Source: a virus
Virus record (IMG/VR): IMGVR_UViG_3300025096_000116
Coordinates: 1-25,389 of that record
Length of the DNA: 25,389 bases
Strand: one strand, 5' to 3'
Shown: positions 95 to 19,415 of the stretch, one piece after another
Numbering within the stretch: position 1 is the first letter of the stretch
Layout of the letters: each line of letters starts with the position of its first letter
The notes under the pieces: model-generated
The model's input: only the letters and a program-made list of their open reading frames with translations
Database searches by the model: none
Told to the model about the DNA's origin: nothing
Made by a program: the position numbers and the translations under genes

Positions 95-123
95 TTGACA
101 GGATCTAAATATTGAGTTATAAT
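95..123 (+). promoter_or_regulatory. Sigma70-type promoter for the nuclease-Mom operon
   Basis: A consensus -35 box TTGACA (95-100) and a consensus -10 box TATAAT (118-123) are separated by exactly 17 bases. All twelve box positions match the bacterial housekeeping sigma consensus. Transcription would start near 130, about 25 bases before the ATG at 156. In T4-like phages such promoters are read by unmodified host RNA polymerase early in infection, so early expression of the downstream pair is inferred. Confidence 0.85.
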
Positions 124-141
124 TAGATTATTATATGAAGT

Positions 142-148
142 AAAGGGA
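142..148 (+). promoter_or_regulatory. Shine-Dalgarno for the nuclease gene
   Basis: AAAGGGA lies 7 bases before the ATG at 156 and supports that start. It contrasts with the structural genes further right, which mostly lack such a site. Confidence 0.6.
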
Positions 149-155
149 TTGCTAA

Positions 156-701
156 ATGATTACTGTTAAGCGAGTAATCATTCAAAGAATCAACAACTAT
201 GATTTTGATTCTAAAAATACATTTAAATATAATGAGTTTCTGACCTTTGATGAAAATAGAGGATATTTTCTTTCAAGGGTAGTTGATCAATTTATTGGCG
301 ATTACGTTGAGTCTGCGATACCTGAATGGAATCCTGATCCAGAATCAAATCATTTAGGTGTTGGGTTGAAAACTGATTGGGAAGATTCTAGGTTTGTTGC
401 TGAACAGAAAAAGAATCCATCAACTGACAATAGTTCTTCAAGAAAGTCTAATTTGATTAAACTCAAACAATCAGCTGAGGAGAAGAATAAAATTCCTCTC
501 TATGCCTACTGGGAAGATCGTAAGAAGAATGATTATATGAAAGATGGTGTTCGTCATCTTCATGGAAAAGCTATCTTCAAAGTCCTAGGTATTGAAGATC
601 AATGGGATGACTTTCTTTCAGACGTAGAATCTGTTAAAATAGTAATTATTGATAAACTCAGAGATAAATTCAATGAACATTATCAAAGATCTCCTGTATG
701 A
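156..701 (+). CDS. Putative PD-(D/E)XK endonuclease, Eco47II-like
   Basis: Probable DNA endonuclease of 181 residues. The likely active site is acidic residues D74/D77 followed by E83-Q84-K85, giving a D...ExK arrangement. It is followed at 87-96 by NPSTDNSSSR, which resembles the KN..NT.NSSS stretch I associate with Eco47II-type type II restriction enzymes. A conserved-looking C-terminal block HLHGKAIFKVLGI (134-146) fits the end of that fold. At 181 residues it is shorter than typical Eco47II-type enzymes, so it may be a reduced or diverged form. The ATG at 156 is chosen because AAAGGGA (142-148) precedes it at a suitable distance and a consensus sigma70 promoter lies just upstream. It overlaps the Mom-like gene by 29 bases, implying translational coupling. 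Recognition sequence and activity cannot be read from the sequence. Another phage PD-(D/E)XK nuclease role, such as host DNA degradation or homing-like competition, is the main alternative. Confidence 0.6.
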   Translation: MITVKRVIIQRINNYDFDSKNTFKYNEFLTFDENRGYFLSRVVDQFIGDYVESAIPEWNPDPESNHLGVGLKTDWEDSRFVAEQKKNPSTDNSSSRKSNLIKLKQSAEEKNKIPLYAYWEDRKKNDYMKDGVRHLHGKAIFKVLGIEDQWDDFLSDVESVKIVIIDKLRDKFNEHYQRSPV

Positions 702-1320
702 TGATCTGGATTTGAGACATCTGAGTGTCAAAGATTTTGATGTTAAACCCACCACCATTCAATATGTGAGGGATTTTGTAGAAACTTGGCATTACTCGTC
801 CAATGTCAATGGACTCAAAATATCTCAGGTCTTTGGATTGTTCTACAATTCTCAACTCATTGGTGCCATGATTTATGGGCCACTTGGTATGGCCAACTCT
901 TGGAAAAAGTATGGTGAAAGTGAATCAGATGTTGTTGAACTCAGGAGACTTTGTTGTATAGACAACACACCAAAGTGCGCTGAAAGTTATTTCATTGGAA
1001 AAACAATCAAATGGTTGAAGAGGAATACGAACTATAAAATAATCGTCTCATACGCGGATGCTTTTCATAATCATAGTGGAACAATATACAAAGCCAGTAA
1101 CTTCACATATGGAGGACTTACATCAAAAGGTAAGGTCATTATCTACAATGACAGAACATATCACGATAAGTGTATAAGAACTTATCACATAGACAAAGAT
1201 GGTAATAAGAGATTGAAACCATTTGCACAGAGAGTAAAGAATGCTTTAGAGGATGGAACTGCAAAATATGTTGAAACCCCTGGTAAACATATATTCACAT
1301 ACAAATTAAGAAAGAAATAA
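673..1320 (+). CDS. Mom-like DNA modification protein (GNAT fold)
   Basis: Homologue of phage Mu Mom, a GNAT-fold enzyme that converts adenine in phage DNA to a methylcarbamoyl-type derivative and so blocks many restriction enzymes. Of the 215 residues, the diagnostic part is ELRRLCCIDNTPKCAESYFI (89-108), then IKWLKRNT (112-119), SYAD (126-129) and H..HSGTIYKASNF (132-144); the order and spacing match the Mom core. An N-terminal W-H-Y-S (39-42) also fits the family. The ATG at 673 is preferred over an in-frame TTG at 649, which would add eight residues and lengthen the overlap with the nuclease gene; AGAGAT lies shortly before 673. The gene overlaps the upstream nuclease gene and shares its promoter. 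It probably protects phage DNA from host restriction and from its own partner nuclease; the second part is inference. The acyl donor and target sequence are unknown. Confidence 0.82.
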   Translation: MNIIKDLLYDDLDLRHLSVKDFDVKPTTIQYVRDFVETWHYSSNVNGLKISQVFGLFYNSQLIGAMIYGPLGMANSWKKYGESESDVVELRRLCCIDNTPKCAESYFIGKTIKWLKRNTNYKIIVSYADAFHNHSGTIYKASNFTYGGLTSKGKVIIYNDRTYHDKCIRTYHIDKDGNKRLKPFAQRVKNALEDGTAKYVETPGKHIFTYKLRKK

Positions 1321-2490: not shown

Positions 2491-2667
2491 ATGGAAAATC
2501 AAGACTTTTTACGGGAGATCTCTAATGATAAATTTACTCCTGCTCGAAAAAACTCTAAGGAAAGTGAATTATTTGAGGAATTACCATCTGTAGAGGAATT
2601 TGTTGATAAAAAGAACGATTCTACCCCACTATTTGAGTATGGTGGCAGAACTTTGCCTTTAGGTTGA
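2491..2667 (+). CDS. Small acidic protein, unrecognised (58 aa)
   Basis: A 58-residue protein that I do not recognise. It is rich in Glu, Asp and Lys, has no cysteine and no hydrophobic stretch long enough to span a membrane, and ends in a Gly/aromatic segment FEYGGRTLPLG (48-58). The ATG at 2491 is preferred to an in-frame GTG at 2473 because AAGGA (2481-2485) sits five bases upstream. It lies between the terminator and gp25 and is probably transcribed late from the octamer at 2462-2469. The stop codon (2665-2667) overlaps the late promoter motif of gp25. Its place ahead of the wedge genes suggests a structural or assembly role, without direct evidence. Confidence 0.6.
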   Translation: MENQDFLREISNDKFTPARKNSKESELFEELPSVEEFVDKKNDSTPLFEYGGRTLPLG

Positions 2668-2673
2668 TAAATA
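2666..2673 (+). promoter_or_regulatory. T4-type late promoter GATAAATA before gp25
   Basis: Seven of eight positions match the T4 late consensus TATAAATA. It ends 23 bases before the gp25 start, so the predicted leader is very short (about 15 bases). It would start transcription of the baseplate wedge block. Confidence 0.55.
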
Positions 2674-2696
2674 AAGCCAGTATTAACTGTAATTAA

Positions 2697-3098
2697 GTGC
2701 CGGTACAACGCGTTAGTCAAGGATTTAAAGATATAAGTGCTACTTTTCAAATAAATCCGATTAATTACGACTTAATTGCATTGAGAAATGAGAATGCTAT
2801 TGCAAGATCAGTTAGAAATTTGATTATGACCCTTCCTGGCGAGCGTCCTTTCGCTCCTGTTTTGGGTTCTAATGTTAGTAATTTGTTATTTGAAAATTTT
2901 GATAATTTAACTTCATCTGCTATTAAAAGTGAAATTAGAACTACATTAGAAAATTATGAGCCACGTATTGAATTAAATAGTGTTAAATGTGAAGCAAATT
3001 ATGATGAACATGCATTTAATGTAACTATTACTTATTATATTATTGGTATTGATGTACCACAACAAGAACTCACCTTTGCGTTATTGCCCACTAGGTAA
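2697..3098 (+). CDS. 25: Baseplate wedge subunit gp25
   Basis: The wedge protein that binds the sheath end of the baseplate and shares its fold with lysozyme-like subunits of contractile injection systems. At 133 residues it is essentially the T4 gp25 length (132). The family signature is visible: ARSVRNLIMTLPGERPFAP (36-54) followed by LGSNVSNLLFENFD (56-69), the T-x-P-G-E-R and G-S...L-L-F-E blocks of the GPW/gp25 family. Translation starts at GTG: the resulting MPVQRVSQGFKDIS start is the one typical of cyanophage gp25, and no ATG fits. No Shine-Dalgarno is seen. The stop codon is directly followed by the gp6 ATG with no gap, so the two are likely translationally coupled. With gp6 and the gp7-like protein it should form the wedge core. 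Confidence 0.93.
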   Translation: MPVQRVSQGFKDISATFQINPINYDLIALRNENAIARSVRNLIMTLPGERPFAPVLGSNVSNLLFENFDNLTSSAIKSEIRTTLENYEPRIELNSVKCEANYDEHAFNVTITYYIIGIDVPQQELTFALLPTR

Positions 3099-5003
3099 AT
3101 GCCTTTAGTAAATTTTAGCAACGTCGATTTTGACCAAATAAAGTTCTCTATTCAGAATTATCTGAAAGCGAATTCCAACTTCACTGATTATGATTTTGAA
3201 GGGTCAAACTTATCGACAATTATAGACACATTAGCTTATAATACTTATATTGCCTCATATAATGCCAACATGGCTACTAATGAGGTGTTCATTGATTCTG
3301 CCACTCTCAGAGAGAATGTGGTGTCTCTGGCGAGGAATATAGGGTATGTGCCCAGATCGAGAAAATCAGCCAAAGCTAACATATCTTTTAATGTAGATGC
3401 ATCTAATACATCTGCATCATCATTGACACTTAAAGCTGGTTTGGTTGCAATAGCAGGTCAAGGATTTGAGAAAGTGCCTTATTCTTTCTGTATACCAGAT
3501 GATATTACTGTTCCCGTAAGATCTGATGGACTAGCACAATTTTATGATATTGACATTTATGAAGGTACACATATTAAACAAACCTTCACAAATAGTTCTA
3601 GAACTCCTTATCAAAGATTTATTCTTTCGAATGAAGGAATAGATACTTCAATTCTTAGAGTGAAAGTATATAATAATAGTACTTCATCTGCCTTCAAGAA
3701 ATTCAATCAGTTTGATAGTTTGATAGGCATAGATTCACAATCTCGTATTTACTTTATTCAAGAAACTGATAATGAGAGATATGAATTATTATTTGGTGAT
3801 GGAACTTTTGGAGTGGCTTTAGAAGAGAATGAATATATCTCTGTTGATTATATTATTTCTCATGGTAGTGCAGGAAATAACATAGGACGTGTTAGTTATT
3901 CTGGAACTTTAGTAAACAATAATGGAGATACTGTTACTGCAGGTGTTTCTGTTGTTGCAACAAATCAATCTTCTTATGGTGGAAAAGAAATTGAATCTAT
4001 TGATTCTATTAAAAAGTATGCTCCTAGAATTTATGCTTCTCAGAATAGAGCAGTAACATCAGCTGATTATGAAGCTCTTCTTCCTAAAATTTATCCAGAA
4101 ACAGAATCAGTTTCAGCTTATGGTGGAGAAGAATTGAGTCCTCCTTCTTTTGGAAGAGTTTTTATTAGTGTTAAACCTTATAATGGAGTCTACCTTTCCA
4201 CTTCAATTAAACAAAATATCAAAAATGAATTGAAAAAGTATGCTGTTGCTGGTATTACTGCCGAAATTGTTGATTTGAAATATTTGTATGTAGAAACCAA
4301 TAGTACTGTTTATTATAATCCAAATTTAACATCTTCAACAGAGTATGCAAAAACTGTAGTTTCAAACAATGTCGCACATTACTCTAATTCTAGTGAGTTA
4401 AATAAGTTTGGGGCTAGATTTAAGTACAGCAAATTCCTTAATGTTATCGATAATAGTGATAAATCAATAACTTCTAATATTACTACGGTAAATATGAGAA
4501 GGGATCTAAAAGTTACATTAAACCAATTTGCTGAGTATGAACTTTGTTATGGAAATCGATTCTACATTAGATCCGAAGATGGATATAATATTAAATCTTC
4601 TGGATTTAAAGTGAGTGGTATTAGTGATATTGTTTATCTTGGAGATCTTCCTAATGAGGATCTTATTACAGGTACTATTTTCTTATTTAAATTAGATTCT
4701 CCAACACAGCCTGTAATTGTGAAGAGAAGTATTGGAACCATTGACTATAGTAGGGGTGAAATTATGTTAAATCCATTGAAGATTATTTCTACAAATGTAT
4801 TTCGTAATGATCTTTCTCTTATTGAAATATCTGTAAATCCTTATTCTAATGATGTAATAGGATTACAAGATCTCTTTTTACAATTAGATGCTAACAACCT
4901 TACCATTAATATGGTATCTGATGAAATTGCTTCTGGAAATGACGTTTCTGGTAGTAATTATATAGTAACTTCTAGTTATTCATCCACATCACTTATAAGA
5001 TAA
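3099..5003 (+). CDS. 6: Baseplate wedge subunit gp6
   Basis: Core wedge protein of the T4-type baseplate, whose dimers join neighbouring wedges into the iris around the hub. The 634 residues compare with 660 in T4. The N-terminal part (DFDQIKFSIQNYLKAN, 10-25, then DTLAYNTYIASYNANMATNE, 44-63, and LARNIGYVPRS, 77-87) is typical of gp6 in cyanophages. The middle holds the baseplate-J-like core, with SADYEALLPKIYPE near 320 and GRVFISVKPYNG near 350. No membrane or signal segments are seen. It starts at the base after the gp25 stop codon and ends six bases before the gp7-position gene. Codon choice in the first 130 codons or so is richer in C- and G-ending codons than in the rest. Confidence 0.92.
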   Translation: MPLVNFSNVDFDQIKFSIQNYLKANSNFTDYDFEGSNLSTIIDTLAYNTYIASYNANMATNEVFIDSATLRENVVSLARNIGYVPRSRKSAKANISFNVDASNTSASSLTLKAGLVAIAGQGFEKVPYSFCIPDDITVPVRSDGLAQFYDIDIYEGTHIKQTFTNSSRTPYQRFILSNEGIDTSILRVKVYNNSTSSAFKKFNQFDSLIGIDSQSRIYFIQETDNERYELLFGDGTFGVALEENEYISVDYIISHGSAGNNIGRVSYSGTLVNNNGDTVTAGVSVVATNQSSYGGKEIESIDSIKKYAPRIYASQNRAVTSADYEALLPKIYPETESVSAYGGEELSPPSFGRVFISVKPYNGVYLSTSIKQNIKNELKKYAVAGITAEIVDLKYLYVETNSTVYYNPNLTSSTEYAKTVVSNNVAHYSNSSELNKFGARFKYSKFLNVIDNSDKSITSNITTVNMRRDLKVTLNQFAEYELCYGNRFYIRSEDGYNIKSSGFKVSGISDIVYLGDLPNEDLITGTIFLFKLDSPTQPVIVKRSIGTIDYSRGEIMLNPLKIISTNVFRNDLSLIEISVNPYSNDVIGLQDLFLQLDANNLTINMVSDEIASGNDVSGSNYIVTSSYSSTSLIR

Positions 5004-5009
5004 TACAGA

Positions 5010-8000
5010 ATGGCCGTCGATAGAGTTAAATTCCAGGATATTGTTGCAAGTCAACTTCCTAGATTTGTTAGAGAGGATTTTCCTCTTCTTTCTGATTTTA
5101 TGGAGCAGTATTATGTTTCTCAAGAACATCAAGGAGGAACATATGATTTGCTTCAAAATATAGATCAATACGTAAAAGTTGATCAATTATATAATTTAAC
5201 TAGTTCTACACTTCTTGAAGAGGATATTGGATTTACATCCAATATCATTTCAACTGCGCAACCAGGCGCAACTGGTATTACTACGACTACTGGTGGGGTT
5301 TTAATAAGTGATGTTAGATATTTGGAAAATGATGGATGTTATACTGAAGGATTTCCAGAAACTAATGGTATTATTCAAATTAATGATGAAATCATTACTT
5401 ATGAATATAAGACTAGTACACAATTTGTAAATTGCACAAGAGGATTCTGTGGTATTACCTCTTTTACTAATATTAATAATCCAGAAGAATTAGTATTTTC
5501 TACTTCTTCTGCATCTCCACATAATAAAGGAGATGTAATTTATAATTTAAATATTATATTTTTACAGGAGTTCTTTAAAAAGATTAAAGCTCAATTTACT
5601 CCAGGATTTGATGATAGAACTCTCTATCCTGGATTAGATAAGAGAAATTTTATTTACGGTGTTGATAGTTTTTATAGCTCGAAAGGTACTGATTCTTCCT
5701 TTAAAATATTATTCCAAAGTTTATATGGGAAAGATGTAGAGATAGTTCATCCTAGTAAATTTCTTTTCCGTCCTTCAGATGCTGATTATAAAGTAACCAA
5801 AGACATTGTAGTCGAATCTTTTCAAGGAGATCCTTTAGAATTAAATAATTTAACTCTTTTTCAAGATTCTACTGGAGCGAAGGGATCTGTTGCTAATGTA
5901 AGAAAAGTTTTATATAATTCTAAGGTAGGAGCTGGCTCTACTACCGCTGAATTTGTAGAACCAGAGCATGATAGTCAATATTATCAAGTTAGTCTTGATA
6001 TTATAGAAGAATCTGCTGCAGTTGATGATTTTAAACCCAATCCAAAAACTAAATTATTAACAGATATAATTTATGATAGTACGAGTAATAATAATATTAT
6101 TGATGTAGATTCAACAGTTGGATTTCCCGATACAGGATATCTTGTTGTAAAAGATGTTAATGGGGATGTAGTTACTTTAGGATATAGTGGTAAAACTGTA
6201 AATCAATTTCTTAATGTTACAGGAATTACGATATCAATTAGTTTATGTAATAAAAAGAGTGATATTAGTTTAGATGACTATGCATATGCATACGTTGGAA
6301 TTAATACTTCAACACAAATTAAAGTTAGAGTTACAAATACTTTAAAAAGTTTAAAATTAGATAGTAAAACATATCGTTATAATGCCAAAGATACCATTAA
6401 AGTTCAATCTTTGGGTATAGAAGCTTCAGGTGTCCAAGATTCTGCGTGGTGGGTTAATAACCAGCCGTATTGGGATGTTAAAGCTATTAGGGCCGTTGAT
6501 GTATCAACTTATGAGGTTGATACACATGCGATTCAGACATTTTTGCCTGGAGATAAAATTACTATCACAACTAATGATACGTCTCCTGTTGGTGGTACTG
6601 TTATTCTTATCAATTCTAATTTTACATTTAGGATTAAATGTAGTGATAATGTAGATATATCATCACCAAATCTTTACTATAAAATACAAAAAGATCTTTT
6701 AAAGGTTGATTCAGATTGGTCTGGATCTACAGAAATAACTGGTTTTTCTAGTTTTAGGGGTTATGAATTGGAAGGGGCTGGACCCGGATTTTCAACTGTT
6801 TTTGGACTGACTCTTACTCCAGTAATAAATGATTATAATGCAAATATATTAAATGCTTATGCAAAATTTGATGGTGATGTTTTAGTAGCTACTAATTCTA
6901 TTCCAAAATATGTTGATGATAGTGGTCAAGATATTCCTACTAATCCATATACTAAGGCTCTTGTTTATAGTGGATCTCCGTATGATGCTACGGGTACTGG
7001 TTATAATGATACGTTACAATTAACTAGAAGTGTTGATCATGGATTTTATACGGGTGATGCTATTTTTTATAATCCAGGAATTAGTACATCTACTTTAAGT
7101 CTTGACGTTTATAGCAATCTTAATTACACAGATGATGATGGACAAGGTATTTTACCATCTAGTGTTTATTATGTAAGAAGAGTTGATGGTCAAAATATTA
7201 AAATCTCTAGAAGTAGATCAGATTTATTTGCTGGTAGTTTTGTAAATTTTGTTGGAATCGTAACTAATACGTTCTTTACTTACTCCCAATTTTATCAAAA
7301 AGAATTTATTCCTCAACCAATTTATAGAAATATATCCAGCCCTTCCCGTAAAGGAGGAGTTTATAAGACAGATCCAGGACATATAGGTATATTGAATAAT
7401 GGTGTAGAAGTAATTAATTATAAATCATCAGATAATGTTTTTTATGGTCCTATTGAATCTGTTGTTGTTGGAAAAGGGGGTTGGGGATATGATGTTATAA
7501 ATCCTCCCCTGTTCCATATTGATGATAATATTTTTGGAGTTTCCAATACAGGAACAGGAGCTACTGGTATTTGTGCTGTTAAGGGTCAATTAGAAAGAAT
7601 TAATATTATTGATTCTGGTCTAGATTACATTGGCACACCTTCTATTGAAATTGGGGGTGGTAATGGCCAAGGAGCCAGTGCAGAAGTTAATATGGCTTCT
7701 ATTATTCATTCATCATCATTTGTTGCTCAAGGAACTGTTGGTGTAGGCAAAACTTCACCCGATCTTAATATTGCTAATGATACTATAGGATTTTCTACTT
7801 TTCACAAGTTTAGTTCATTAGAAAAAGTAATTTATCAATCATTGGGATTGACAGGAGTGGGAGGTCTTTCTACTGACGCAACTTATTATGTGCAAAAAGT
7901 AGATAATTATAATATTAAATTACATGATACTCTTAGTGATGCAACACTTGGTATTGGTACTATTAATATAACTTCTTATGGATCTGGAGTTCAAAAGATT

Positions 8001-11000
8001 CGATCATTCTCTAGGAAAAGGATTGTTTCTAATATTATTGTTAGTAATTCTGGATCTGGGTATCAAAATAAGCAGAGAAGTATTGTCGAAGTTAAGACAT
8101 CCAATAATAGAATTTACATTAAAAATCATGGATATTTGAGTGGAGAAATTGTTCAATATAGTGCCGGTTCAAATCCACTTGGAGAACTTTCTACAACTGC
8201 AAAATATTATGTTAAAAAAATTGATAATGATAATTTTTCTTTAAGTCTAGTAGGATCAGGAAATACATCTTCTCGTTATTATTATGATAATGATATTATT
8301 GTTGGTTATGCTGCTACTGGAGATGGTTCTTTTAATTATGAGCCAATTACAGTTGAAGTTAAAGGTGTAGTGGGAATTGGTACTACAAGTGGTGACGGTC
8401 AAGATTTTAATTGTAAGGTTCAACCTATTTTTAGAGGATCTATTGATTCTGTTGATATAACTTCTGGTGGAATTGGTTATGGTGCTTCTGAAGTTTTGAA
8501 TTTTAATAGACAGCCAGTTATTACTTTTAAGAGTGGAAAAAATGCTCAACTTCAACCAATAATTGGTAATGGAGAAATTGTAGGTATTATTATTAGAAAC
8601 GGAGGAACAGAATATAATTCTCCTCCAGATTTAATAGTTGAAAGTCCGGAAGGAAAAAATGCAAGACTTACTCCAATTATAACTGATGGGGTGATTACTG
8701 ATGTAAAAATAATTAATGGTGGAATAGGATTCACTCTCGACACGACGATTATTAAGGTAGAAGCAGTACCGGATGTTGATGCATCTGAAGGACAAGCTAC
8801 TATAATTGTGAATAGTAAAAGATGGAATGTTGATTTATTCCAGAAGAATTATAATGATGGAAATTCTTTAGGCCTTATTAAATCGGATGATGGATTTTTA
8901 ACTAATAATATTACTAATAGTTCTCTTCAATATGGATGTCTTTATATACCTCGTGCTTTAAGGAGACATAGTTATTCAGTTTCTGAGGCAGGAAATGTAG
9001 TTTTTGGATCTCCAGATCTGAGAACTGTAGATTTAACTGTAATAGATGGAAGAGAAGTTGATAGTCTTCAACATTCGCCTATTTTAGGATGGGCTTATGA
9101 TGGAAACCCAATTTATGGTCCTTATGGATATGCTGGTGTTGAAGGTGGTGCAGTTAAACAGATGATGTCTGGATATGAACTTAAAGATGCTCCCAATAAT
9201 AGGCCGCCATTTGTTGATGGATTTTTTGTTGAAGATTATATTTTTACAGGTAAAGGGGATTTGGATGATCATAATGGAAGATTTTGTGTAACTCCCGATT
9301 TTCCAAAAGGAGTATATGCCTATTTTACTTCTCTATCTGAATCTTTATCAGAGGGAGGTCCTTTTAACAATTATAAAAAGCCTGCTTTCCCCTATGTTAT
9401 TGGTAATACTTATCAATCAGAACCTAATAATTTTAATTTCTTAGGATCTTCCAATCAATCTGATTATGATATCGAATCTAATGACTGGTTTAGAAATACT
9501 AAGAACTATAATCTTAATGAAAGTCTTAGTGGATATGATTATATTTTTAATTCTAATAGAATTAGAAAACAGAGTATTGATATCACAGCATCGTCTGTAG
9601 GTAATGTGGAAAATATTGGTATTTTTAGTGGGGGAAACGATTATCAATATGATGATCGTTTGGTTTTTGATAGTGTAGGAACAGGTGGTAAAAATGTTGG
9701 TGCCAGAGTTGAAAGGGTGGGTGGAAAAGATATCACCACTATAAGTGCTGAGACTAGTTCAATTCCATTAGTTGAATTTGGATATGGTTCAAATAGAACT
9801 GAATTTATTGGTTTTACTTCTACACCACATAATTTGTTATCGGAAGATATTGTAAATGTTGACGGACTCTCTCAATATTTTAAAGGATTTAATGGTACGT
9901 ATAAAGTTGGAGTTAGATCTGATAGTCTTGTTTTAAGAGAAGATATTGGAACAAGTGAGGCTACAGGTTTAACAACTTATTTTAATGTTTATGGTAATTT
10001 AGAATTTCCTGCTATTCGTCCTAATGATATTTTAGGGATTGCGACGGAAAGAGTCAAGGTTTTAAATGTTGATACAAAACTTCAAAGAATTCGTGTTTTA
10101 AGAGCTCAAGATGGGACTGCTGGATTGAGTACATTTAATGGAGAAGTTTTATTTGAGGATCCTAGGAAATTTACAATCAATGTTGGATCTATTGCTACCA
10201 CTAAATCTTTACCTGTAAATACTGAACTTTATTTTAATCCAGTAGAATCTGTCGGACTTGGAAATACAACTGGTATTGGTATTGGAAATACTCTGGCAAT
10301 TGTTAATCCTGGAGCAGGTATTACGAATATATTTGTCAAACCTCAACATCTTTATATACCTGATCACGGATTAAATTTGAATGATAAAGTTTATTATAAT
10401 ATTAATGATGGAACATCATCTATTATTGGGTGGAACGGTACTACTGGTATTGGAACTACCGCTTTATCGGCTTTTGAATTCTTTTATGCTGCTCCACTAT
10501 CAAAAGATTTTATTGGAATTGCAACTAATAAAGTTGGTATAGGAACTACTACAATTGGAGTTGGTGCATACCCAAATGCTCTTAATTATGTTGGAATTGG
10601 AGTAACTAAAGGTCTTTTCTTCTTTACAGATATTGGAATAGGTTCTTATCATAGCTTTAAAACTTCTTTTACTAATACAGTCACTACTCAAGTTGATAGA
10701 ACTGTGGCTACAGTATCTACCGCATCTACTCATGGATTAAATCGTGGGGATAAAATTATAGTATCTGTAAAACCTACAGATACTGTATCTGTAGCTGTAA
10801 GTTATAGTAATAATAGTAGAAGAATTATATTTGATCCCGTTGGATTTACATCTACAAATATTGATATAACTCAAAATACTATTGGCATTACATCACATAC
10901 CTTTAAAAAAGGTGATAAAGTTCTTCATACTGCTGCTTCTGCTTGTGGAGGCCTTATAGATGGTGGATTGTATTATGTTCTTCCTTTTACTGGGGATAAG

Positions 11001-14000
11001 ATTAAGTTAGTTTCTGAGAAATTCGAACTCACAGAACCTGTTCCATCAGTTATTGATATTACTAGTATAGAAAATGGAACTTTATCTAAGATTAATCCTT
11101 TAGTTGAAATTAATAGAAATAATAAGCTTATATTTGATCTTTCAGATTCTTCATTGGCTTTTAATGTAAGTGGTAATATAAACAAATCCGCTTTTAGGAT
11201 GGGATTGTATTCTGACGATAAATTTACACAAGATTTTGTAACTGCTGGTAAAAATGTTGGATTTGCTGTTACTAGATCTTCTATAGATGTAGGTAAGCCA
11301 GGAGCACAACTTACTTTATCAGTTTTGGATGATGTTCCAAACAATTTGTGGTATAAATTTAGTCCAGATAATCTCGATCAAGTTCCAGCCACTAAGAGTG
11401 AAATTATAGTTGACGAAACTGTAAATTCATATAATCAGATTAATGTTGTAAAAAGTCGTTATGATGGTCAATATACTGTTGGTACTGTAGGGGCTGCAGG
11501 AGACACCTTTACCTATGATCTGGGTACACCTCCAACTAAAGATTATACCTCAACAGTTGATGTGGGATCTACTCCTACATCAGTATCTGTATATGAAACG
11601 GATTCATCTACAGTTTATGGTTCTATTAATAAACTTAAGATTTTAAATGCTGGATCTGGTTATAAGAATCTTCCTGGAATTGCTTCTGTTACAAGTGGAT
11701 TTGGAACAGGTGCTATTCTGTTTACCGAAAGTACAAATATAGGTAATATTGTAGATTATAAATTTAATGCTAACTGTATAGGATGGGATTATCCTACTGA
11801 TAGAACTTTAAGACCAGTAGCAAATCTTCCCGAAATTGTAAAAATAGAATCATTAGCATCTTTTGAAAATATTGGTATTACTTCTGTGGGAGTAGGTTAT
11901 CTTTTAGCTCCTTCTTTGGTAGTAATTGATAGTTATACTAAGAAAAAGGTTGATGATGTTGAGTTAAAATATGATCTTGGGGATACTCAAGTTAGTATTA
12001 TTAGAAATACTACTGGATTGTATAATTATCCTCCTCAAATTATTCCTACAAACAATACCAATGGTTCTAAAGTTTTATCTGTTGATTGGACCCAATCTAC
12101 AAGTATTGTAAAGATCACCTTTGATACCACTTTTGCTAATAATTCAGATTTCCATTATGCTATTGGAGAAAATATTTTAGTTGAAAATATTAGTGTAGGA
12201 ATTGATAGTACAGGAATTGGTTATAATTCTTCAGATTATGATTATAAATTATTCGCCGTTACCGGTGTTCAAACCAATGCTGGTGGAACTGGAGGATGGG
12301 TTGAATATAGTTTAGATGGCCTTATAGGTGTTGGTCAAACTCCAGGAAGAATGGATGCTTCCAATTCTAGCGGAAGAGTGGTTGCTCAAAAAGATTTTCC
12401 ATCCTTTAATCCTACTTTAAAAGTAAATAATTTCTTAGTTGGAGAAAAGGTAATTAGTAACTTCCAACAAGGCGAAGTTGAGAGTTGGAATGCTCTTTCT
12501 GAGACATTGAAAGTATCAACATCTCAAGAATTGGTGGTTGGAGATGTAATTAGGGGACTAACTTCCAACACTCAAGGAGAAATAAAGAGTAAAATTGATT
12601 TTGATGCTGAAATTATTACAGGGGCTGGAGCTACTGTTGTTGAAGGATGGCAAAATAACACTGGATTTTTAAGTGATGATCTCCAAAGACTTCCTAACAA
12701 TGAATATTATCAAAATTTCTCATATTCTTTAAAATCTGAAGTTTCTATGGCTTCTTGGGGGAATCCTGTAGGTTCCTTTGAGCATGCTGCTGGCTTTGAT
12801 TTATATTCAGATTTTCAAGTAGTGAGTCAGACTGATGACAATACTCCTGTTCAAAATCGTAATGTTCGTGTAGATACTCGTGGGTCTGGAATAGAGATTG
12901 TATCGCATTTGGTTGGAAAGGCAAGTCTTAATTGTTATTCTGATTTTGATTTGGTAAGTGAAGGAATTATTCAAATTGGATCTCAATATGTGTCTAATAG
13001 TATAGATTTTAAAACTAGAATCCTTACTGATTATTTTGAATCAGTTGGAAATCGTGTATTAAGTATTGATGATTTTAGTAGTAGTTTTAGTAGTTTTGCA
13101 AGTAGTCAAAAATTTAGTGTAGCTGGTGTATTCGGAGAGAATGAAATCTTCAATAAAGCGCTAGTTTTAGTAAGAGATAATAAGTATACTGATGAAAGAC
13201 AATTTGGGCTTGTAACACTTCTTCAGTATGGTGGACTCGGTTATATAAACCAATACGGTCATCAAAATAATTTTACTGTTTCCGGCACTTTGGATGATAC
13301 TCAATATGATGAGTTGGGTGATTTTGATTTTTTAAATACATCTACTGGTTGGCATTTGACATTTAGTCCAGTTAAGTATGAATACAATACTTATGATATA
13401 TCATCTATTTCTTTTAGTATTCTCAATGATAATTCATCAACTGGAATTCAGACTTTGGGTGATGTATCTCGCATTTATAGTGGAAAGACAAATATTCCAG
13501 CATCTGCTACAACTACAGTAGCATCTATTTCTACATCCTATAGATCTAGTAGTTTACTTGTTCAGATTGAAGATACTAGTAATAATTTCTATGCAAGTCA
13601 ATTGAATATTATTCATGATGGCACAAATGTTTATGTTAATGAATATGGAGCTTTAAGTAATACTACTCCTGATAATAGTTTTGGAGTTGGATTTGGAACT
13701 TATAGCGCTTCTATTAGTGGAGGCAACGTTGAGATTGACTTTATTCCTAATGTAGCTGTTGCTCTTACAGCTAATTATTCTGCAGTTTCTATAGCTGATA
13801 CACAAACATCTATTGGATCTACATTACTTAGTTCAGGAGTAGTTTCATCAGGTTATACATCTATTGCTGCTTCTGGAAGCCCTTCAGCTGTTGCAATATC
13901 TTCTTATTATAGTGCTGGAGCTGGTTCTACTAATGCATCTTATTATATTCTTTCTGTTGAAGATACAACTAATAATAAGTATGAAATGGCTGAAGTTTGT

Positions 14001-17000
14001 GTTTTGAATTCAAGTTCAACGGAATCAATGATTGAATTTGGAAATGTACTTTCTGGTTCAGGTATTGGTACAGTAGGAATCTCTACTGATGGAGATTATA
14101 TTAATCTTAATTATACTCCAAATGCAAGTATTGATGTAGATGTTAGGTTATTTGCTATTAATAGCTTCCCTTATGACAATAATTCTTATTCTAGTCAAAT
14201 AAATCTGAATAATAGTATTGTTAATAGTAAAGTAGGCGTTTATACAGGAACAAAAATAAGAGTAAAAGATTCCTTTGCTTTACAGTATAAAGGTTTAAAT
14301 ATCTTTAAGAGAAATTTTGATGGTTCAGATAGTAGTGTTGTTGATACAACATCAAATGCTGTTTTCTTGGGAGATCATTTCTTTATTACTGGTGAAAAGA
14401 TAACATATGATTATCCAGGTAGTGATACTTCAACTACTAATGCTATTAGTATAGCATCTACTAATATTAGTGGTATCGGTGTAACTACAAAACTTCCTAA
14501 GAATCTCTTTGTTGTAAAAGAATCGGGTACTCTGAAATTTACTGATACCGCATCAAAAGCTTTATCTAGGTATCCAACTACTTTTGAGCTTACTGCAGTT
14601 GGTATTGGAACCACTCATGCGATTAATACTGTTGAACCCAATAAGCGGGCATTGATGGCTATTGATAATATGATTCAGGCTCCAGTTGCTCCTACTAAGA
14701 TTACTAGTGGATTGAGTACTGATGTTTTATTAGAGCAACAAATAGGAGTCACTGGATTTACATCTATTTTCTCTTCTGATTTGATTAAAATTGATGATGA
14801 AATTATGAAAGTGGTGCATGTAGGATATGCTGGTAGTAGTCAATTAACTGTTCTTCGATCACAATTAGGAACAACATTAGAAAGTCATGGTATAGGTGCA
14901 ACCATTACCAAACTGAGTGGTAATTATAATATTGTAGATAATACTGTTTATTTTGCTTCTGCTCCCCACGGCCAAGTCCCCCAAAGTGATGAGTTCGCAC
15001 TTGATCCGGATAACAGAGATTGGACGGGAATTACTACAAGTTCTACTTTCCAAGGTAGAGTATTCCTAAGAACAGCTGCAGAAGATACTAGTAGAGATGT
15101 ATATGCTGACAATTATATCTTTGATGATATTTCTAATGAATTTACAGGAATTACTAGTCAATTTACTTTAACTAATTCTGGTGACAATATTACTGGATTC
15201 TCTACGTTTAATGGTATTGTTCTTATTAATAATATTTTCCAACAACCACAAGGAGTTCAAGCTCAAGCAGATGCTTATACATTAGAAGAATATAGTGGAG
15301 TTAGTAGCGTTAGATTTACTGACACATCTACTACATTTACAGGATATGATGCCAATAAAACTTCTTATCCTAGAGGTGGAGTTATTATTTCCGTGGGATC
15401 TAGTCAAGGGTTTGGATATCAACCTTTAGTATCTGCTGGTGGAAGTGCTATTGTTTCTACTGCTGGTACTATTGCTTCTATTAGTATTGGAAATAGTGGG
15501 TCTGGATATAGATCTGGTATTCAATCATCAAATGGGGCATATGGTCAAATTAGTGTTGGTATTCAAACCTATAGTGCAGGAGTTCCTAATATTATAGCAA
15601 TTGGAACTGGTGCAATTAGTGGAGGTCATATTGTAAGTATAGCTGTTACAAATCCAACTCTTTTATATAAGCCTAGAGATATTGCAAATGTTGGATATAG
15701 TTCAGCTACAGGTTTAACTACAGTCACCACCTTGACAACTCATGGATTATCTCAAGGTGATGATATTCAGTTAAGTGGAATAGCATTTACTTGTGATTAT
15801 TCCACTCCTAAGACTATTACTAATGTAGGATATACTACTACATCAGGTATAATGACAGTTACTACCTCAGGAGCTCATGCTTATTCTGTGGGACAGGATG
15901 TTATTCTTACTTCAATTGGAATGACCTGTCAATATGATACTGTTAATCCATCTTGGTATCCTAGAGGAAAGGATTATGCCTACGATAATGGAGTTGGTAT
16001 AGTATCAGCTACTTCTAATACCATTACAGTGGATATTGGATATGGTGGTCCAGGTGATCAGTTTACTCATACTTACACTGGTGGTACTGTATCAGCTGCT
16101 GTTACTAGTGGTGGTAATTATATTCATCAGTTTGTAAATGCTACTGGTAATGCAGTTATTAGTGGTGGTGATTATCCTCATACATTTGTAAGTGCCGGAG
16201 TAGGAAGTATTTTTGTAGGTTCTGTAGATAGTGGTGTAATTACAACAGCTACTTATGCTACCTATGATGGAGGCACAGGTGAGTTAGTCTTAACAGTTGT
16301 AGGTCATGGATTAGAATCTGGTAATTTGGTTGGTTTCGATACAGGTTCGTTAGTATTCACCTGTGGAATGGATAGTAATTCTGATGATAAGACATATCCT
16401 CGTTCAGATGATCCTATTTGGGTTGGTGGAGGAACAACCAGCATTACCGAAGTTACTGATAATACATTTACAGTAAATGTAGGTAAATCGCCAATTGTAT
16501 ATTATACACCTACCGATGCTACTTACACAGGTAGTACTGGATTCTTAGAACTTACTATTGGTTCTCATGGATTCTCTACAGCAGTTAGTATTCCTAGTGT
16601 TAAATTTAAGGATAATAGTTTGAACTTTAGATGTTCAATGGATGATTATAATTCTATCCATAGCTATCCTAGAACTACACTCGATTATTTCACACCTACT
16701 ACAGCAGCTTATAATCCAACTACTGGTGTAGTAACATTAACTATTGCTAATCATGGATTTGTTGATGGTGATAGAGTTCAACTTGTTGATGGTGCTCTGA
16801 CCTTTACATGTAACTTAGATAGTCATACTGCTCAGAAGACATATCCTAGATCATCAGATCCTATTAGTGGTAAGTGGGTATTAGTATCCAATATAACTAC
16901 CAATACTTTTGAGATACAAGTATTAGATTCTACACCTTCCACTAATACAGATGCTCACACATTTGTAAGTGCATTGAGTAATGGTGTTATGAGAAAACGT

Positions 17001-19415
17001 GATAGATCTTATAATACTTCTGTTGCTATTGCTGCTACTTCCGCCACTACTATTACTCTTAATGTGGGCGCATCACCTTTAGTAACTCACAATGTTACTG
17101 GTGCCGATTATAGCCCATCAACAGGGTTGATGAAGTTGACATTTGATGCAAATCATACTCTTACTACTGGCACTAATGTTAGGATTAAAGAAGATTCTTT
17201 ATCATTCACTTGTACCAAAGATGGTAACTCTACCACTCACAAATATCCTAGAAAACCAGATCCATCATATGGTGGAGTAGGAATTACTAGCGTTCCTAGT
17301 AGCAATACTTTCGTCGTGAATGTTGGTACTTCTACAGTAGCTACTTATTATAAGACTGGCGGAACAGTACAAGGTTGTATTATTGCTCCTAGAACTAATG
17401 GATCTACATCACCTGGTGGAGCAGATCCAGCTGCAAAAAATACACAAATTCTTAGAATTGTTGATAGTAAGACTTTTGAATGTAATACAGGAACTACTAC
17501 TTGTCATCATTATTATTCCAGAAGTGGAAGTGTTAAATTCCCCATGGAAGTAGTATTTGATGATCCACTCAGTTATGAAAATATTCCTTTAGTTTATAGT
17601 TCAGATTCTACTCCTGGCATTGGTCAGAGTGCAACTGTTGATGTTGTTGTCGGTAGAGGATCAAGTGTTGTTAGCTTTACTATTGACCAAACTGGTGTTG
17701 GTTATGGTTCTTCTGAAGTTCTTACAGTTGAAGTTGGGGGCACTACAGGAATTCCAACTAACACTAACTTAACTTTTAATGAATTCCAACTCAATATTGA
17801 TGATGTATTTACTGATAAGTTTGGTGGGTGGTCTGTAGGTGAACTTGAAGTTCTGGATAGGATAGAATCTCAATTTGATGGATATACAAAATCCTTTAGA
17901 ATTGAACTTTCTGGAACCCCCGTTTCTATTCAGGCATCTCCAGGATCTAATGTTGATGTCCAAATGGTTCTTTTAGTCTTTATTAATGATATTTTGCAGG
18001 AACCAGGAGAATCTTATGTGTTCAATGGTGGTAGTACTCTTACATTTACAACTGCACCTAAATCTGGAGATTCATCTAAGATTCTTTTCTATAAGGGAAG
18101 TGGTGAGATTGATGTGAAATTTACTGATATTCTCGAAACAGTAAAGGTTGGAGATAAGTTGGATATAAATGTTGATATGTCCCAAGGATATGGATCAGCT
18201 TTTGATGAAGATCCGCGAATGGTGGTTGGTATTAATACTATGGATAGTGTATCAACTAATGATTATGCTGGTGTTGGTATATCGTCAGATGGATTGATTC
18301 CAGGTACACTTACTGAATTGTTTAGACCTGTAACTTGGTGTAAGCAGCAAGTTGATATGATTATTAATAATGAAAGAATAGGAAAAGATAGAATTCACTA
18401 TGAGCCATTAATTTATCCTACTACTAATGTTCTTCATAATATTGGAGTTGGAACTTATTTCGTATATGTTGACAGCTTAAGACCTCTATTTGATTCAAAT
18501 AATGAAGCTGCTATTAGGGCATTCCAAGATTCTATTGTGATAGATTCTCAAGATGTAGTTATTGGAGCCTCAGCTACCGCTACTGTTTCTGTGGCAGGAA
18601 CAGTTTCTGCTATTACTGTAACTGATGGTGGTTATGGATATAGTAGTACTCCTACAGTAACTATTGCTGATCCTGTGGGGTTAGGAACTACAGGAGGAGC
18701 TACAGCTACAGCTACACTATCTTCTGGACTTATTGATAGTGTTACAGTTTCTTATGGAGGATCAACAACTGGTACAGCTTATACTACTTCTAGTCCTCCT
18801 GTGGTTTTAATATCACCACCTACACTTATAAAAGAGAAAATTAACGTATCTTCTTATAGTGGTGATTATGGAACTGTTGTGGGATTTGGAACTACTACAT
18901 CTGGACCTCAAAATAGACTTTATTTTGATTTGTGGATTCCTTTAGATTCTTATATGAGAGATGCTGATTATGTTGGATCAGCAGTTACTATAAGTACCAT
19001 AAATGTTGGTGATTATTTCACAATTTATAATACAAATGTATCTAGTGGACTTAGTACTTTTGCAAGTCAAACCTATCAAACTGCTGTTTCTGTAGGAATA
19101 GCTACTACATGTGTTGATGATGTTTATCAGGTCTACAGTGCAGAAACAAGAGAACTTCCATCAGAAGTTCTTGGATTTAGCACTTACGTAAGAAGAATAT
19201 TTACTAATGTTGATAGAGTTGGTAGTGGAATAGCCTATACTACCTCTTATCAGAATGAACTTCCTTCTTTGGGTGAATTTAGTTGGGGTAAGATTATTTT
19301 AGACAATTCTCCATCAAAGGTTTATAATTTCTATGGGGACAATGGAATAAGTGGAATTTCTACTTCTGCTCTTGTGACTCGGTATGAACCTCTTAAATAT
19401 AATAATTATACTTAA
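5010..19415 (+). CDS. 7: Giant baseplate wedge protein in the gp7 position
   Basis: A 4801-residue virion protein between gp6 and gp8, where T4 encodes gp7 (1032 residues). The N-terminus (VASQLPRFVREDFPLLSDFM, 12-31; DSFYSSKGTDSSFKILFQSL, about 218-237) is the conserved wedge part. Module series follow: an N-terminal INDEIITY element, HG..(x)GD repeats (about 677-1965), three with YYV (plus one at 1963), a YHYH domain (about 1340-1445; WAYDGNPIYGPYGY), many SGxGY and GIGTT motifs, and an IDDEIMKV...VLRSQLGT module (about 3250-3300). There are also LMAIDNMIQAP/GIVLINNIFQ/VFINDILQEPG elements and Cys/YPR repeats (about 3578-4175). WCKQQVDMIINNERIGKDRI (about 4443-4462) marks the C-terminal region. 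Nearly all of it should be beta-rich, with no membrane segments. The ATG at 5010 has no clear Shine-Dalgarno. Scaffold plus peripheral fibre or adhesin functions are inferred. Confidence 0.85.
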   Translation: MAVDRVKFQDIVASQLPRFVREDFPLLSDFMEQYYVSQEHQGGTYDLLQNIDQYVKVDQLYNLTSSTLLEEDIGFTSNIISTAQPGATGITTTTGGVLISDVRYLENDGCYTEGFPETNGIIQINDEIITYEYKTSTQFVNCTRGFCGITSFTNINNPEELVFSTSSASPHNKGDVIYNLNIIFLQEFFKKIKAQFTPGFDDRTLYPGLDKRNFIYGVDSFYSSKGTDSSFKILFQSLYGKDVEIVHPSKFLFRPSDADYKVTKDIVVESFQGDPLELNNLTLFQDSTGAKGSVANVRKVLYNSKVGAGSTTAEFVEPEHDSQYYQVSLDIIEESAAVDDFKPNPKTKLLTDIIYDSTSNNNIIDVDSTVGFPDTGYLVVKDVNGDVVTLGYSGKTVNQFLNVTGITISISLCNKKSDISLDDYAYAYVGINTSTQIKVRVTNTLKSLKLDSKTYRYNAKDTIKVQSLGIEASGVQDSAWWVNNQPYWDVKAIRAVDVSTYEVDTHAIQTFLPGDKITITTNDTSPVGGTVILINSNFTFRIKCSDNVDISSPNLYYKIQKDLLKVDSDWSGSTEITGFSSFRGYELEGAGPGFSTVFGLTLTPVINDYNANILNAYAKFDGDVLVATNSIPKYVDDSGQDIPTNPYTKALVYSGSPYDATGTGYNDTLQLTRSVDHGFYTGDAIFYNPGISTSTLSLDVYSNLNYTDDDGQGILPSSVYYVRRVDGQNIKISRSRSDLFAGSFVNFVGIVTNTFFTYSQFYQKEFIPQPIYRNISSPSRKGGVYKTDPGHIGILNNGVEVINYKSSDNVFYGPIESVVVGKGGWGYDVINPPLFHIDDNIFGVSNTGTGATGICAVKGQLERINIIDSGLDYIGTPSIEIGGGNGQGASAEVNMASIIHSSSFVAQGTVGVGKTSPDLNIANDTIGFSTFHKFSSLEKVIYQSLGLTGVGGLSTDATYYVQKVDNYNIKLHDTLSDATLGIGTINITSYGSGVQKIRSFSRKRIVSNIIVSNSGSGYQNKQRSIVEVKTSNNRIYIKNHGYLSGEIVQYSAGSNPLGELSTTAKYYVKKIDNDNFSLSLVGSGNTSSRYYYDNDIIVGYAATGDGSFNYEPITVEVKGVVGIGTTSGDGQDFNCKVQPIFRGSIDSVDITSGGIGYGASEVLNFNRQPVITFKSGKNAQLQPIIGNGEIVGIIIRNGGTEYNSPPDLIVESPEGKNARLTPIITDGVITDVKIINGGIGFTLDTTIIKVEAVPDVDASEGQATIIVNSKRWNVDLFQKNYNDGNSLGLIKSDDGFLTNNITNSSLQYGCLYIPRALRRHSYSVSEAGNVVFGSPDLRTVDLTVIDGREVDSLQHSPILGWAYDGNPIYGPYGYAGVEGGAVKQMMSGYELKDAPNNRPPFVDGFFVEDYIFTGKGDLDDHNGRFCVTPDFPKGVYAYFTSLSESLSEGGPFNNYKKPAFPYVIGNTYQSEPNNFNFLGSSNQSDYDIESNDWFRNTKNYNLNESLSGYDYIFNSNRIRKQSIDITASSVGNVENIGIFSGGNDYQYDDRLVFDSVGTGGKNVGARVERVGGKDITTISAETSSIPLVEFGYGSNRTEFIGFTSTPHNLLSEDIVNVDGLSQYFKGFNGTYKVGVRSDSLVLREDIGTSEATGLTTYFNVYGNLEFPAIRPNDILGIATERVKVLNVDTKLQRIRVLRAQDGTAGLSTFNGEVLFEDPRKFTINVGSIATTKSLPVNTELYFNPVESVGLGNTTGIGIGNTLAIVNPGAGITNIFVKPQHLYIPDHGLNLNDKVYYNINDGTSSIIGWNGTTGIGTTALSAFEFFYAAPLSKDFIGIATNKVGIGTTTIGVGAYPNALNYVGIGVTKGLFFFTDIGIGSYHSFKTSFTNTVTTQVDRTVATVSTASTHGLNRGDKIIVSVKPTDTVSVAVSYSNNSRRIIFDPVGFTSTNIDITQNTIGITSHTFKKGDKVLHTAASACGGLIDGGLYYVLPFTGDKIKLVSEKFELTEPVPSVIDITSIENGTLSKINPLVEINRNNKLIFDLSDSSLAFNVSGNINKSAFRMGLYSDDKFTQDFVTAGKNVGFAVTRSSIDVGKPGAQLTLSVLDDVPNNLWYKFSPDNLDQVPATKSEIIVDETVNSYNQINVVKSRYDGQYTVGTVGAAGDTFTYDLGTPPTKDYTSTVDVGSTPTSVSVYETDSSTVYGSINKLKILNAGSGYKNLPGIASVTSGFGTGAILFTESTNIGNIVDYKFNANCIGWDYPTDRTLRPVANLPEIVKIESLASFENIGITSVGVGYLLAPSLVVIDSYTKKKVDDVELKYDLGDTQVSIIRNTTGLYNYPPQIIPTNNTNGSKVLSVDWTQSTSIVKITFDTTFANNSDFHYAIGENILVENISVGIDSTGIGYNSSDYDYKLFAVTGVQTNAGGTGGWVEYSLDGLIGVGQTPGRMDASNSSGRVVAQKDFPSFNPTLKVNNFLVGEKVISNFQQGEVESWNALSETLKVSTSQELVVGDVIRGLTSNTQGEIKSKIDFDAEIITGAGATVVEGWQNNTGFLSDDLQRLPNNEYYQNFSYSLKSEVSMASWGNPVGSFEHAAGFDLYSDFQVVSQTDDNTPVQNRNVRVDTRGSGIEIVSHLVGKASLNCYSDFDLVSEGIIQIGSQYVSNSIDFKTRILTDYFESVGNRVLSIDDFSSSFSSFASSQKFSVAGVFGENEIFNKALVLVRDNKYTDERQFGLVTLLQYGGLGYINQYGHQNNFTVSGTLDDTQYDELGDFDFLNTSTGWHLTFSPVKYEYNTYDISSISFSILNDNSSTGIQTLGDVSRIYSGKTNIPASATTTVASISTSYRSSSLLVQIEDTSNNFYASQLNIIHDGTNVYVNEYGALSNTTPDNSFGVGFGTYSASISGGNVEIDFIPNVAVALTANYSAVSIADTQTSIGSTLLSSGVVSSGYTSIAASGSPSAVAISSYYSAGAGSTNASYYILSVEDTTNNKYEMAEVCVLNSSSTESMIEFGNVLSGSGIGTVGISTDGDYINLNYTPNASIDVDVRLFAINSFPYDNNSYSSQINLNNSIVNSKVGVYTGTKIRVKDSFALQYKGLNIFKRNFDGSDSSVVDTTSNAVFLGDHFFITGEKITYDYPGSDTSTTNAISIASTNISGIGVTTKLPKNLFVVKESGTLKFTDTASKALSRYPTTFELTAVGIGTTHAINTVEPNKRALMAIDNMIQAPVAPTKITSGLSTDVLLEQQIGVTGFTSIFSSDLIKIDDEIMKVVHVGYAGSSQLTVLRSQLGTTLESHGIGATITKLSGNYNIVDNTVYFASAPHGQVPQSDEFALDPDNRDWTGITTSSTFQGRVFLRTAAEDTSRDVYADNYIFDDISNEFTGITSQFTLTNSGDNITGFSTFNGIVLINNIFQQPQGVQAQADAYTLEEYSGVSSVRFTDTSTTFTGYDANKTSYPRGGVIISVGSSQGFGYQPLVSAGGSAIVSTAGTIASISIGNSGSGYRSGIQSSNGAYGQISVGIQTYSAGVPNIIAIGTGAISGGHIVSIAVTNPTLLYKPRDIANVGYSSATGLTTVTTLTTHGLSQGDDIQLSGIAFTCDYSTPKTITNVGYTTTSGIMTVTTSGAHAYSVGQDVILTSIGMTCQYDTVNPSWYPRGKDYAYDNGVGIVSATSNTITVDIGYGGPGDQFTHTYTGGTVSAAVTSGGNYIHQFVNATGNAVISGGDYPHTFVSAGVGSIFVGSVDSGVITTATYATYDGGTGELVLTVVGHGLESGNLVGFDTGSLVFTCGMDSNSDDKTYPRSDDPIWVGGGTTSITEVTDNTFTVNVGKSPIVYYTPTDATYTGSTGFLELTIGSHGFSTAVSIPSVKFKDNSLNFRCSMDDYNSIHSYPRTTLDYFTPTTAAYNPTTGVVTLTIANHGFVDGDRVQLVDGALTFTCNLDSHTAQKTYPRSSDPISGKWVLVSNITTNTFEIQVLDSTPSTNTDAHTFVSALSNGVMRKRDRSYNTSVAIAATSATTITLNVGASPLVTHNVTGADYSPSTGLMKLTFDANHTLTTGTNVRIKEDSLSFTCTKDGNSTTHKYPRKPDPSYGGVGITSVPSSNTFVVNVGTSTVATYYKTGGTVQGCIIAPRTNGSTSPGGADPAAKNTQILRIVDSKTFECNTGTTTCHHYYSRSGSVKFPMEVVFDDPLSYENIPLVYSSDSTPGIGQSATVDVVVGRGSSVVSFTIDQTGVGYGSSEVLTVEVGGTTGIPTNTNLTFNEFQLNIDDVFTDKFGGWSVGELEVLDRIESQFDGYTKSFRIELSGTPVSIQASPGSNVDVQMVLLVFINDILQEPGESYVFNGGSTLTFTTAPKSGDSSKILFYKGSGEIDVKFTDILETVKVGDKLDINVDMSQGYGSAFDEDPRMVVGINTMDSVSTNDYAGVGISSDGLIPGTLTELFRPVTWCKQQVDMIINNERIGKDRIHYEPLIYPTTNVLHNIGVGTYFVYVDSLRPLFDSNNEAAIRAFQDSIVIDSQDVVIGASATATVSVAGTVSAITVTDGGYGYSSTPTVTIADPVGLGTTGGATATATLSSGLIDSVTVSYGGSTTGTAYTTSSPPVVLISPPTLIKEKINVSSYSGDYGTVVGFGTTTSGPQNRLYFDLWIPLDSYMRDADYVGSAVTISTINVGDYFTIYNTNVSSGLSTFASQTYQTAVSVGIATTCVDDVYQVYSAETRELPSEVLGFSTYVRRIFTNVDRVGSGIAYTTSYQNELPSLGEFSWGKIILDNSPSKVYNFYGDNGISGISTSALVTRYEPLKYNNYT
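7036..8270 (+). repeat. HG..(x)GD...YYV repeats in the gp7-position protein (first cluster)
   Basis: Three related segments of about 50-70 residues begin with a His-Gly or His-Lys turn and end in YYV followed by an Asp and a Lys/Ser-Leu strand. They start near residues 677 (HGFYTGDAIFY ... YYVRRVDGQNIKI), 932 (HKFSSLEKVIY ... YYVQKVDNYNIKL) and 1040 (HGYLSGEIVQY ... YYVKKIDNDNFSL). A fourth full copy lies near residue 1963 (HTFKKGDKV ... YYVLPFTGDKIKL, about 10896-11030). Shorter copies of the HG..(x)GD part occur near residues 1607, 1786 and 1908. They are protein-level repeats with diverged DNA. Confidence 0.75.
9030..9345 (+). other. YHYH-type domain within the gp7-position protein
   Basis: Residues about 1340-1445 contain SPILGWAYDGNPIYGPYGY followed 45-70 residues later by DLDDHNGRFCVTPDFPKGVY and AYF. 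This matches the pattern of the YHYH domain (W-A-x-D-G-x-P-I-Y-G-P-x-G, then D..NGR...P.G.Y.Y), found in bacterial secreted proteins and some marine phage virion proteins. Its biochemical role is unknown to me; the His/Asp/Tyr-rich pattern is compatible with metal or ligand binding. Confidence 0.7.
15741..17370 (+). repeat. Tandem HG...C...YPR repeats in the gp7-position protein
   Basis: Five full copies carry, in order, an HG-type turn, one cysteine (MTC, FTC or FRC) and Tyr-Pro-Arg, usually followed by a Val-rich strand. The His residues lie near 3623, 3766, 3853, 3915 and 4049, and the Tyr of YPR near 3650, 3796, 3886, 3945 and 4079, giving His-to-Tyr spacings of 27, 30, 33, 30 and 30. A truncated copy precedes them (His 3578, FTC ending at Cys 3595, no YPR) and a degenerate one follows (FECNTGTTTCHHYYSR, near 4160). 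Between some copies lies a HTFVSA or HTYTGG element. The units are likely small beta domains in a string. Confidence 0.8.
17950..18110 (+). other. Fibre-type module (VFINDILQEPG) in the gp7-position protein
   Basis: Residues about 4318-4370 read as a strand LLVFINDILQEPG followed by SYVF, TLTFTTAPKSGD and KILFYKGSG. This is the common phage tail-fibre or virion module with the pattern V-x-I-N-G/D-x-x-Q-x-P-G ... F...AP..GD...I.F..G. Weaker copies of the first strand occur near residues 3214 (LMAIDNMIQAP) and 3402 (GIVLINNIFQQP). It suggests that part of this wedge-linked protein has fibre-like surface modules. Confidence 0.6.

Follow-up and report, generated by a model that had tools for sequence, protein, structure and literature searches.

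In phage T4, the phage marks its own DNA with hydroxymethylcytosine, and endonucleases II and IV cut the unmarked DNA of the host. In the type II system of EcoO109I, the restriction endonuclease is paired with a methyltransferase. The com-mom operon of phage Mu shares with the locus described here an upstream gene that overlaps mom within one operon; Com, however, is a small zinc-finger translation activator and not a nuclease, whereas the upstream gene of our locus encodes a predicted nuclease. Fusions of Mom to a restriction endonuclease (Mom-REase), encoded by jumbo phages, have been predicted to provide self-marking together with the cutting of unmarked DNA (Iyer et al. 2021, PMC7824862). 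Our locus resembles these fusions in that a Mom domain is tied to a domain predicted to have a restriction-endonuclease fold, and we propose for it the logic that was predicted for them.

The window, that is the whole stretch of DNA that we analysed, is a complete IMG/VR entry of 25,389 bp, which its baseplate genes (gp25, gp6 and a giant gp7-like ORF) assign to a T4-like phage. At its left end lie a promoter, a 181-aa ORF and an overlapping Mom-family gene (Table 1). Here we compare this arrangement with its relatives in other phages, and we weigh what the two genes may do together.

Results

Table 1. Features of the nuclease-Mom locus at the left end of the window.
Feature	Position	Strand	Details
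sigma70-type promoter	95..123	+	TTGACA 95-100, 17-bp spacer, TATAAT 118-123; 12/12
type-A PD-(D/E)XK nuclease (predicted), 181 aa	156..701	+	predicted active site D74, E83-x-K85; motif invariant; homologous by profile to type B, more weakly to EcoO109I family
predicted catalytic segment, codons D74-K85, DWEDSRFVAEQK	375..410	+	position computed from ORF start 156
overlap of nuclease 3′ end and mom 5′ end, 29 bp	673..701	+	from ORF coordinates; 29-41 bp in relatives
Mom-family DNA modification gene, 215 aa	673..1320	+	ATG 673, stop at 1320; PF25680, phrog_1384

The original prediction placed both genes behind one consensus sigma70 promoter and had them overlap by 29 bases, and both features are present as described (Table 1). 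The promoter is the sole 12/12 sigma70 site of the window when both strands are scanned. Within the 150 bp upstream of the type-A cassettes, which carry a nuclease of the same group as that of the window, the best site scores 10-12/12 in 14 of 14 cases and at least 11 in 10 of 14; among 150-bp stretches drawn at random from these loci, 7.7% reach at least 10 and 3.0% at least 11. Unlike the type-A cassettes, the freshwater cassettes with a second type of nuclease (type B, see below) have no such strong upstream promoter. A second near-consensus promoter (11/12) is found immediately 3′ of mom, at 1344-1372 of the window, and the gene that follows it (1418-2266) belongs to phrog_1574, with weak similarity to glycosyltransferases. 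At 5010-19415, a single 4801-aa ORF lies between gp6 and a gp8-like gene, where the baseplate wedge initiator gp7 would be expected.

The downstream gene had been taken for a clear member of the Mom family. Indeed, its product matches PF25680 with E=4.6e-34 (118.3 bits against a cut-off of 27.1, profile positions 2-172 of 202) and phrog_1384 with E=2.1e-58. Relatives of Mom are encoded in 320 phage records, and the gene is under purifying selection (median dN/dS ~0.06, from pairs that are not independent).

The D...ExK motif and the NPSTDNSSSR stretch pointed out earlier in the 181-residue protein are likewise found, the latter at residues 87-96. D74, E83 and K85 are invariant across the 15 type-A relatives aligned from IMG/VR, with identities down to 43%, and the nuclease gene is under purifying selection (median dN/dS ~0.18, again from non-independent pairs). 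The Eco47II-type label that came with the motif did not hold: PF09553 is matched by a single one of 15 members, with E=0.27, and we rejected membership in this family. The window nuclease matches no family of Pfam, the EcoO109I family PF14511 included, nor any of PHROG or NCBIfam, and no match to it was obtained by tblastn of phage records. A search for cellular relatives of type A returned one match, on a contig which is itself a T4-like phage, and PDB sequence searches with type A or type B gave nothing meaningful. The AlphaFold model of type A is of moderate quality (pLDDT 75), being uncertain near the active site and weak at residues 62-76, and, as modelled with this weak stretch, it has no significant fold match among PDB and viral structures; its secondary structure elements come in the same order as those of type B.

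To which nucleases, then, is type A related? In the freshwater phage DSL-LC03, a gene annotated in GenBank as 'type II restriction endonuclease' is located upstream of Mom, with a 38-bp overlap, and together with its marine relatives it makes up the second nuclease group, type B. The type-B counterparts of D74, E83 and K85 are D84, Q94 and K96, a Q thus replacing the E of E-x-K (Q94-x-K96), a change that is tolerated in some families. The two types are homologous by profile comparison (E=4.6e-7, score 48.7), the maximum of 200 column-shuffled control comparisons being 21.9. For type B, a Foldseek search with the model (pLDDT 85) identified the fold of EcoO109I (E=1.5e-4, probability 1.00), and PF14511 is matched by 4 of 10 type-B members, with a best E=2e-5. 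We also built an alignment of the EcoO109I family from 37 bacterial proteins, which type B matches with E=9e-6 and type A more weakly, with a score of 27.0 versus a maximum of 19.9 in 60 shuffles. The stretch aligned in the latter case is the active-site region, GVGLKTDWEDSRFVAEQKKNPSTDNSSS of type A facing the GVDLEF...RFIVxIKSGPNWGNSS segment. Judging from its model, type B has the EcoO109I fold, and the profile comparisons make type A a remote relative of type B and of the EcoO109I-like nucleases. For the 181-aa protein of the window, a predicted EcoO109I-like nuclease is the better supported assignment, rather than one of Eco47II type.

The linkage of the two genes was assessed by searching with the nuclease only and counting the contigs with downstream sequence (n=50). 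Mom is directly downstream, and overlapping, in all 50 of these evaluable contigs, namely 27 type-A contigs, 1 type-A contig in a MAG and 22 out of 22 evaluable type-B contigs; among them no nuclease occurs without Mom or with other cargo. The overlap is mostly of 38 bp. The adjacent pair, which the original prediction proposed to look for in other phages, is thus widespread, recurring with its overlap in dozens of contigs, and, since both genes are also under purifying selection, the pair and its overlap are far beyond chance. Among the best 80 Mom loci, 47 have a nuclease of type A or B, 23 have none and 10 are too short for a call. S-SSM7 carries a Mom without the nuclease, and most of the mom genes inspected in other phages have no adjoining nuclease. 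As the nuclease always comes with Mom and Mom also occurs alone, the dependence appears to be one-way, as in restriction-modification systems, and this pattern of occurrence suggests that it is the nuclease that depends on Mom.

Other genes are also found next to mom. In eight marine contigs (L142-L148, L152), a third upstream gene overlapping mom was considered and rejected as a nuclease, being a second Mom homologue: two different Mom homologues stand there in tandem, at the place held elsewhere by the nuclease, with a 29-bp overlap between them (for example L147:1795-2502 and the mom that follows). In Roseobacter phage CRP-902 (L072), a VRR-NUC gene overlaps mom by 4 bp.

When type-A cassettes are compared with type-B ones, the identity is 14-25% for the nucleases but 61-85% for the Moms. 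The same imbalance is seen between L048 and L061, with a dN of 0.02 for Mom and of 0.27 for the nuclease. Both types are present in the slot between regA and hsp20 (A in L005, L007, L042 and L047; B in L177 and L178) and in the slot between psbA and psbD (A in L006; B in L176). This divergence of the nuclease beside a near-constant Mom, sometimes in the same slot, indicates that the nuclease gets exchanged. The DNA of the overlap is alike in type-A and type-B cassettes, the final codons of both nucleases being read from it, and this likeness at the start of mom places the exchange junction there. Elsewhere, cassettes follow uvsX, lie close to the gp25 baseplate region (in the window) or stand between hsp20 and gp43, where L066, from a MAG labelled Formosa sp., has one of type A; in DSL-LC03 the cassette is ~20 kb from gp25. 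Given these several genomic places, the unit behaves as a cassette. The exchange is argued from pairwise identities and gene neighbourhood, the Mom phylogeny being too poorly resolved for counting exchanges. The L066 contig is T4-like phage DNA that was binned into the Formosa sp. MAG.

Methyltransferases of the D12 (PF02086), N6/N4 (PF01555) and C5 (PF00145) families are absent from the complete DSL-LC03 genome and from eight contigs of 25-122 kb; for these three families and nine records, the partner enzyme of the unit is Mom and not a DNA methyltransferase. One contig, L005, encodes a D12-class adenine methyltransferase (1404-2258) several genes upstream of the cassette. We found no avoidance of palindromes that tracks the nuclease type, and RGGNCCY, the EcoO109I site, is not avoided. 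CCGG is nearly absent from DSL-LC03 (2 seen for 68.6 expected) and likewise from other freshwater type-B contigs, the scarcity extending over the loci L078-L081 (DSL-LC03), L188-L193 and L204 (S-SSM7), all from phages that carry Mom. We rejected this scarcity as a reporter of nuclease specificity, because S-SSM7, which has no nuclease, is also nearly free of CCGG (0 seen for 27 expected). Moreover, CCGG contains no adenine, and an adenine modifier would therefore be unable to protect it; host restriction is the likelier cause. In S-CRM01, which is not among the Mom matches listed, CCGG is not scarce.

Discussion

We consider it probable that the locus is a phage restriction-modification-like cassette, with Mom as the protective half and the nuclease as the cutter. 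A unit of this kind had been proposed from the window, and that proposal is supported in part, by the linkage of the two genes and its asymmetry, by the conserved active site, by the EcoO109I-like fold predicted for type B, by the absence of three methyltransferase families from the records searched and by the in-place exchange; the Eco47II assignment is the part that has to be given up. The strong promoter before the type-A cassettes and the several genomic places of the unit also speak for it. On the other side of the balance stand the weak type-A model without a fold match, the lack of family matches for type A, the Q in the type-B motif, the lack of palindrome avoidance that follows nuclease type, the D12 gene of L005 and the many mom genes of other phages that have no nuclease as neighbour. 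In such a unit Mom, a GNAT-fold enzyme, would put an acyl-derived group on the N6 of adenine and so mark the phage DNA, and the PD-(D/E)XK nuclease would cut unmarked DNA, that of the host early in infection and that of co-infecting phages devoid of Mom. The single strong host-type promoter would drive both genes together, and the overlap probably couples their translation, so that no nuclease would be made without its protector. One Mom could serve several nucleases because it would be broadly protective, as in Mu; shielding against nucleases of differing specificity, it would allow the nuclease to be exchanged in place. DNA modification, cleavage, protection and target are what we infer for these genes, and, as to the target, we lean towards host DNA, the exclusion of Mom-less phages being a second effect.

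Could the unit instead be a mobile element of the homing type, whose nuclease would spread the unit by cutting the unoccupied site of phages devoid of Mom, Mom itself being no more than cargo and an anti-restriction gene? Its presence in several slots, including psbA/psbD and regA/hsp20, would fit, and cyanobacteria are known to have homing enzymes of the PD-(D/E)XK class. However, in the contigs found, the nuclease always comes with Mom and with no other cargo, its overlap with mom is constant, and it is the nuclease that changes while the slot and Mom stay. The fold match of type B, moreover, is to EcoO109I, homing enzymes being absent from the matches listed, and we regard this explanation as unlikely. 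We give the same low weight to the view that these are two independent early genes, Mom acting against host restriction and the nuclease in host takeover or recombination without any dependence on Mom. In line with this view, phages often carry Mom alone, and Mu Mom acts in anti-restriction, but the view accounts poorly for a linkage with overlap in 50 of 50 contigs, for the one-way dependence and for the exchange of the nuclease beside a constant Mom.

In Mu, com is located upstream of mom, overlaps it and is needed for its translation, and the overlap of the upstream gene with mom is conserved here too. The upstream gene might accordingly be imagined to serve chiefly in regulating mom, as Com does, or in coupling its translation, with a nuclease activity that is lost or unimportant. 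The D, E and K residues that 15 relatives of type A share without exception, the purifying selection and the type-B fold all argue against this, and we find it very improbable, much more so than either of the preceding explanations.

Returning to the cassette in which Mom would protect and the nuclease would cut, a broader proposal can be made, about which our doubts somewhat outweigh our confidence. One broad acyl mark may make several sequence-specific nucleases safe, in what would be a general-protector restriction system. Specificity could then evolve by gene exchange at the start of mom, with no need for a matching methyltransferase, and the system could be used in marine contests among phages and between phages and hosts.

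If the restriction-modification-like reading is true, phages would possess, in this cassette, a restriction system protected by an enzyme other than a methyltransferase; as this protection would not be bound to a single site, the cutter could be swapped freely. It would also explain how some T4-like cyanophages without the T4-type cytosine modification could distinguish their own DNA from that of hosts or rivals, and it would supply tools in the form of nucleases that come with their matching protection. A natural comparison of phages with and without the nuclease is provided by DSL-LC03 and the S-SSM7-like phages.

How does the cassette compare with known systems? In the degradation of host DNA by T4, the mark is a pre-replicative change of cytosine, the nucleases are different and there is no two-gene cassette. 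With the EcoO109I type II system, type B shares the predicted fold and type A appears as a remote relative, but the partner here is Mom. In Geobacillus phage PK3.6 (L063), an HNH nuclease gene (2514-3023) is directly upstream of mom (2965-3696), with a 59-bp overlap; as the fold is unrelated, this is possibly an independent pairing. No match was found between the type-A and type-B profiles and the Mom proteins of 15 other phages, two long ones included.

The original prediction knew of no such pairing described in cyanophages. This has to be qualified: the logic was predicted in PMC7824862, and the adjacent pair of DSL-LC03 is annotated in GenBank, with no mention in the DSL-LC03 paper. In the openly licensed literature we found no description of the two-gene form, of the EcoO109I-like nucleases, of their exchange or of the cyanophage distribution. 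In the jumbo-phage Mom-REase, a single fused polypeptide known from prediction only, the two activities would be joined in one chain; here there are two overlapping ORFs, two EcoO109I-like nuclease types and their exchange, in cyanophages. In conclusion, the underlying kind of system was known so far by prediction only, and what is new here is the split into overlapping genes, the types of nuclease, their exchange and their distribution among cyanophages.
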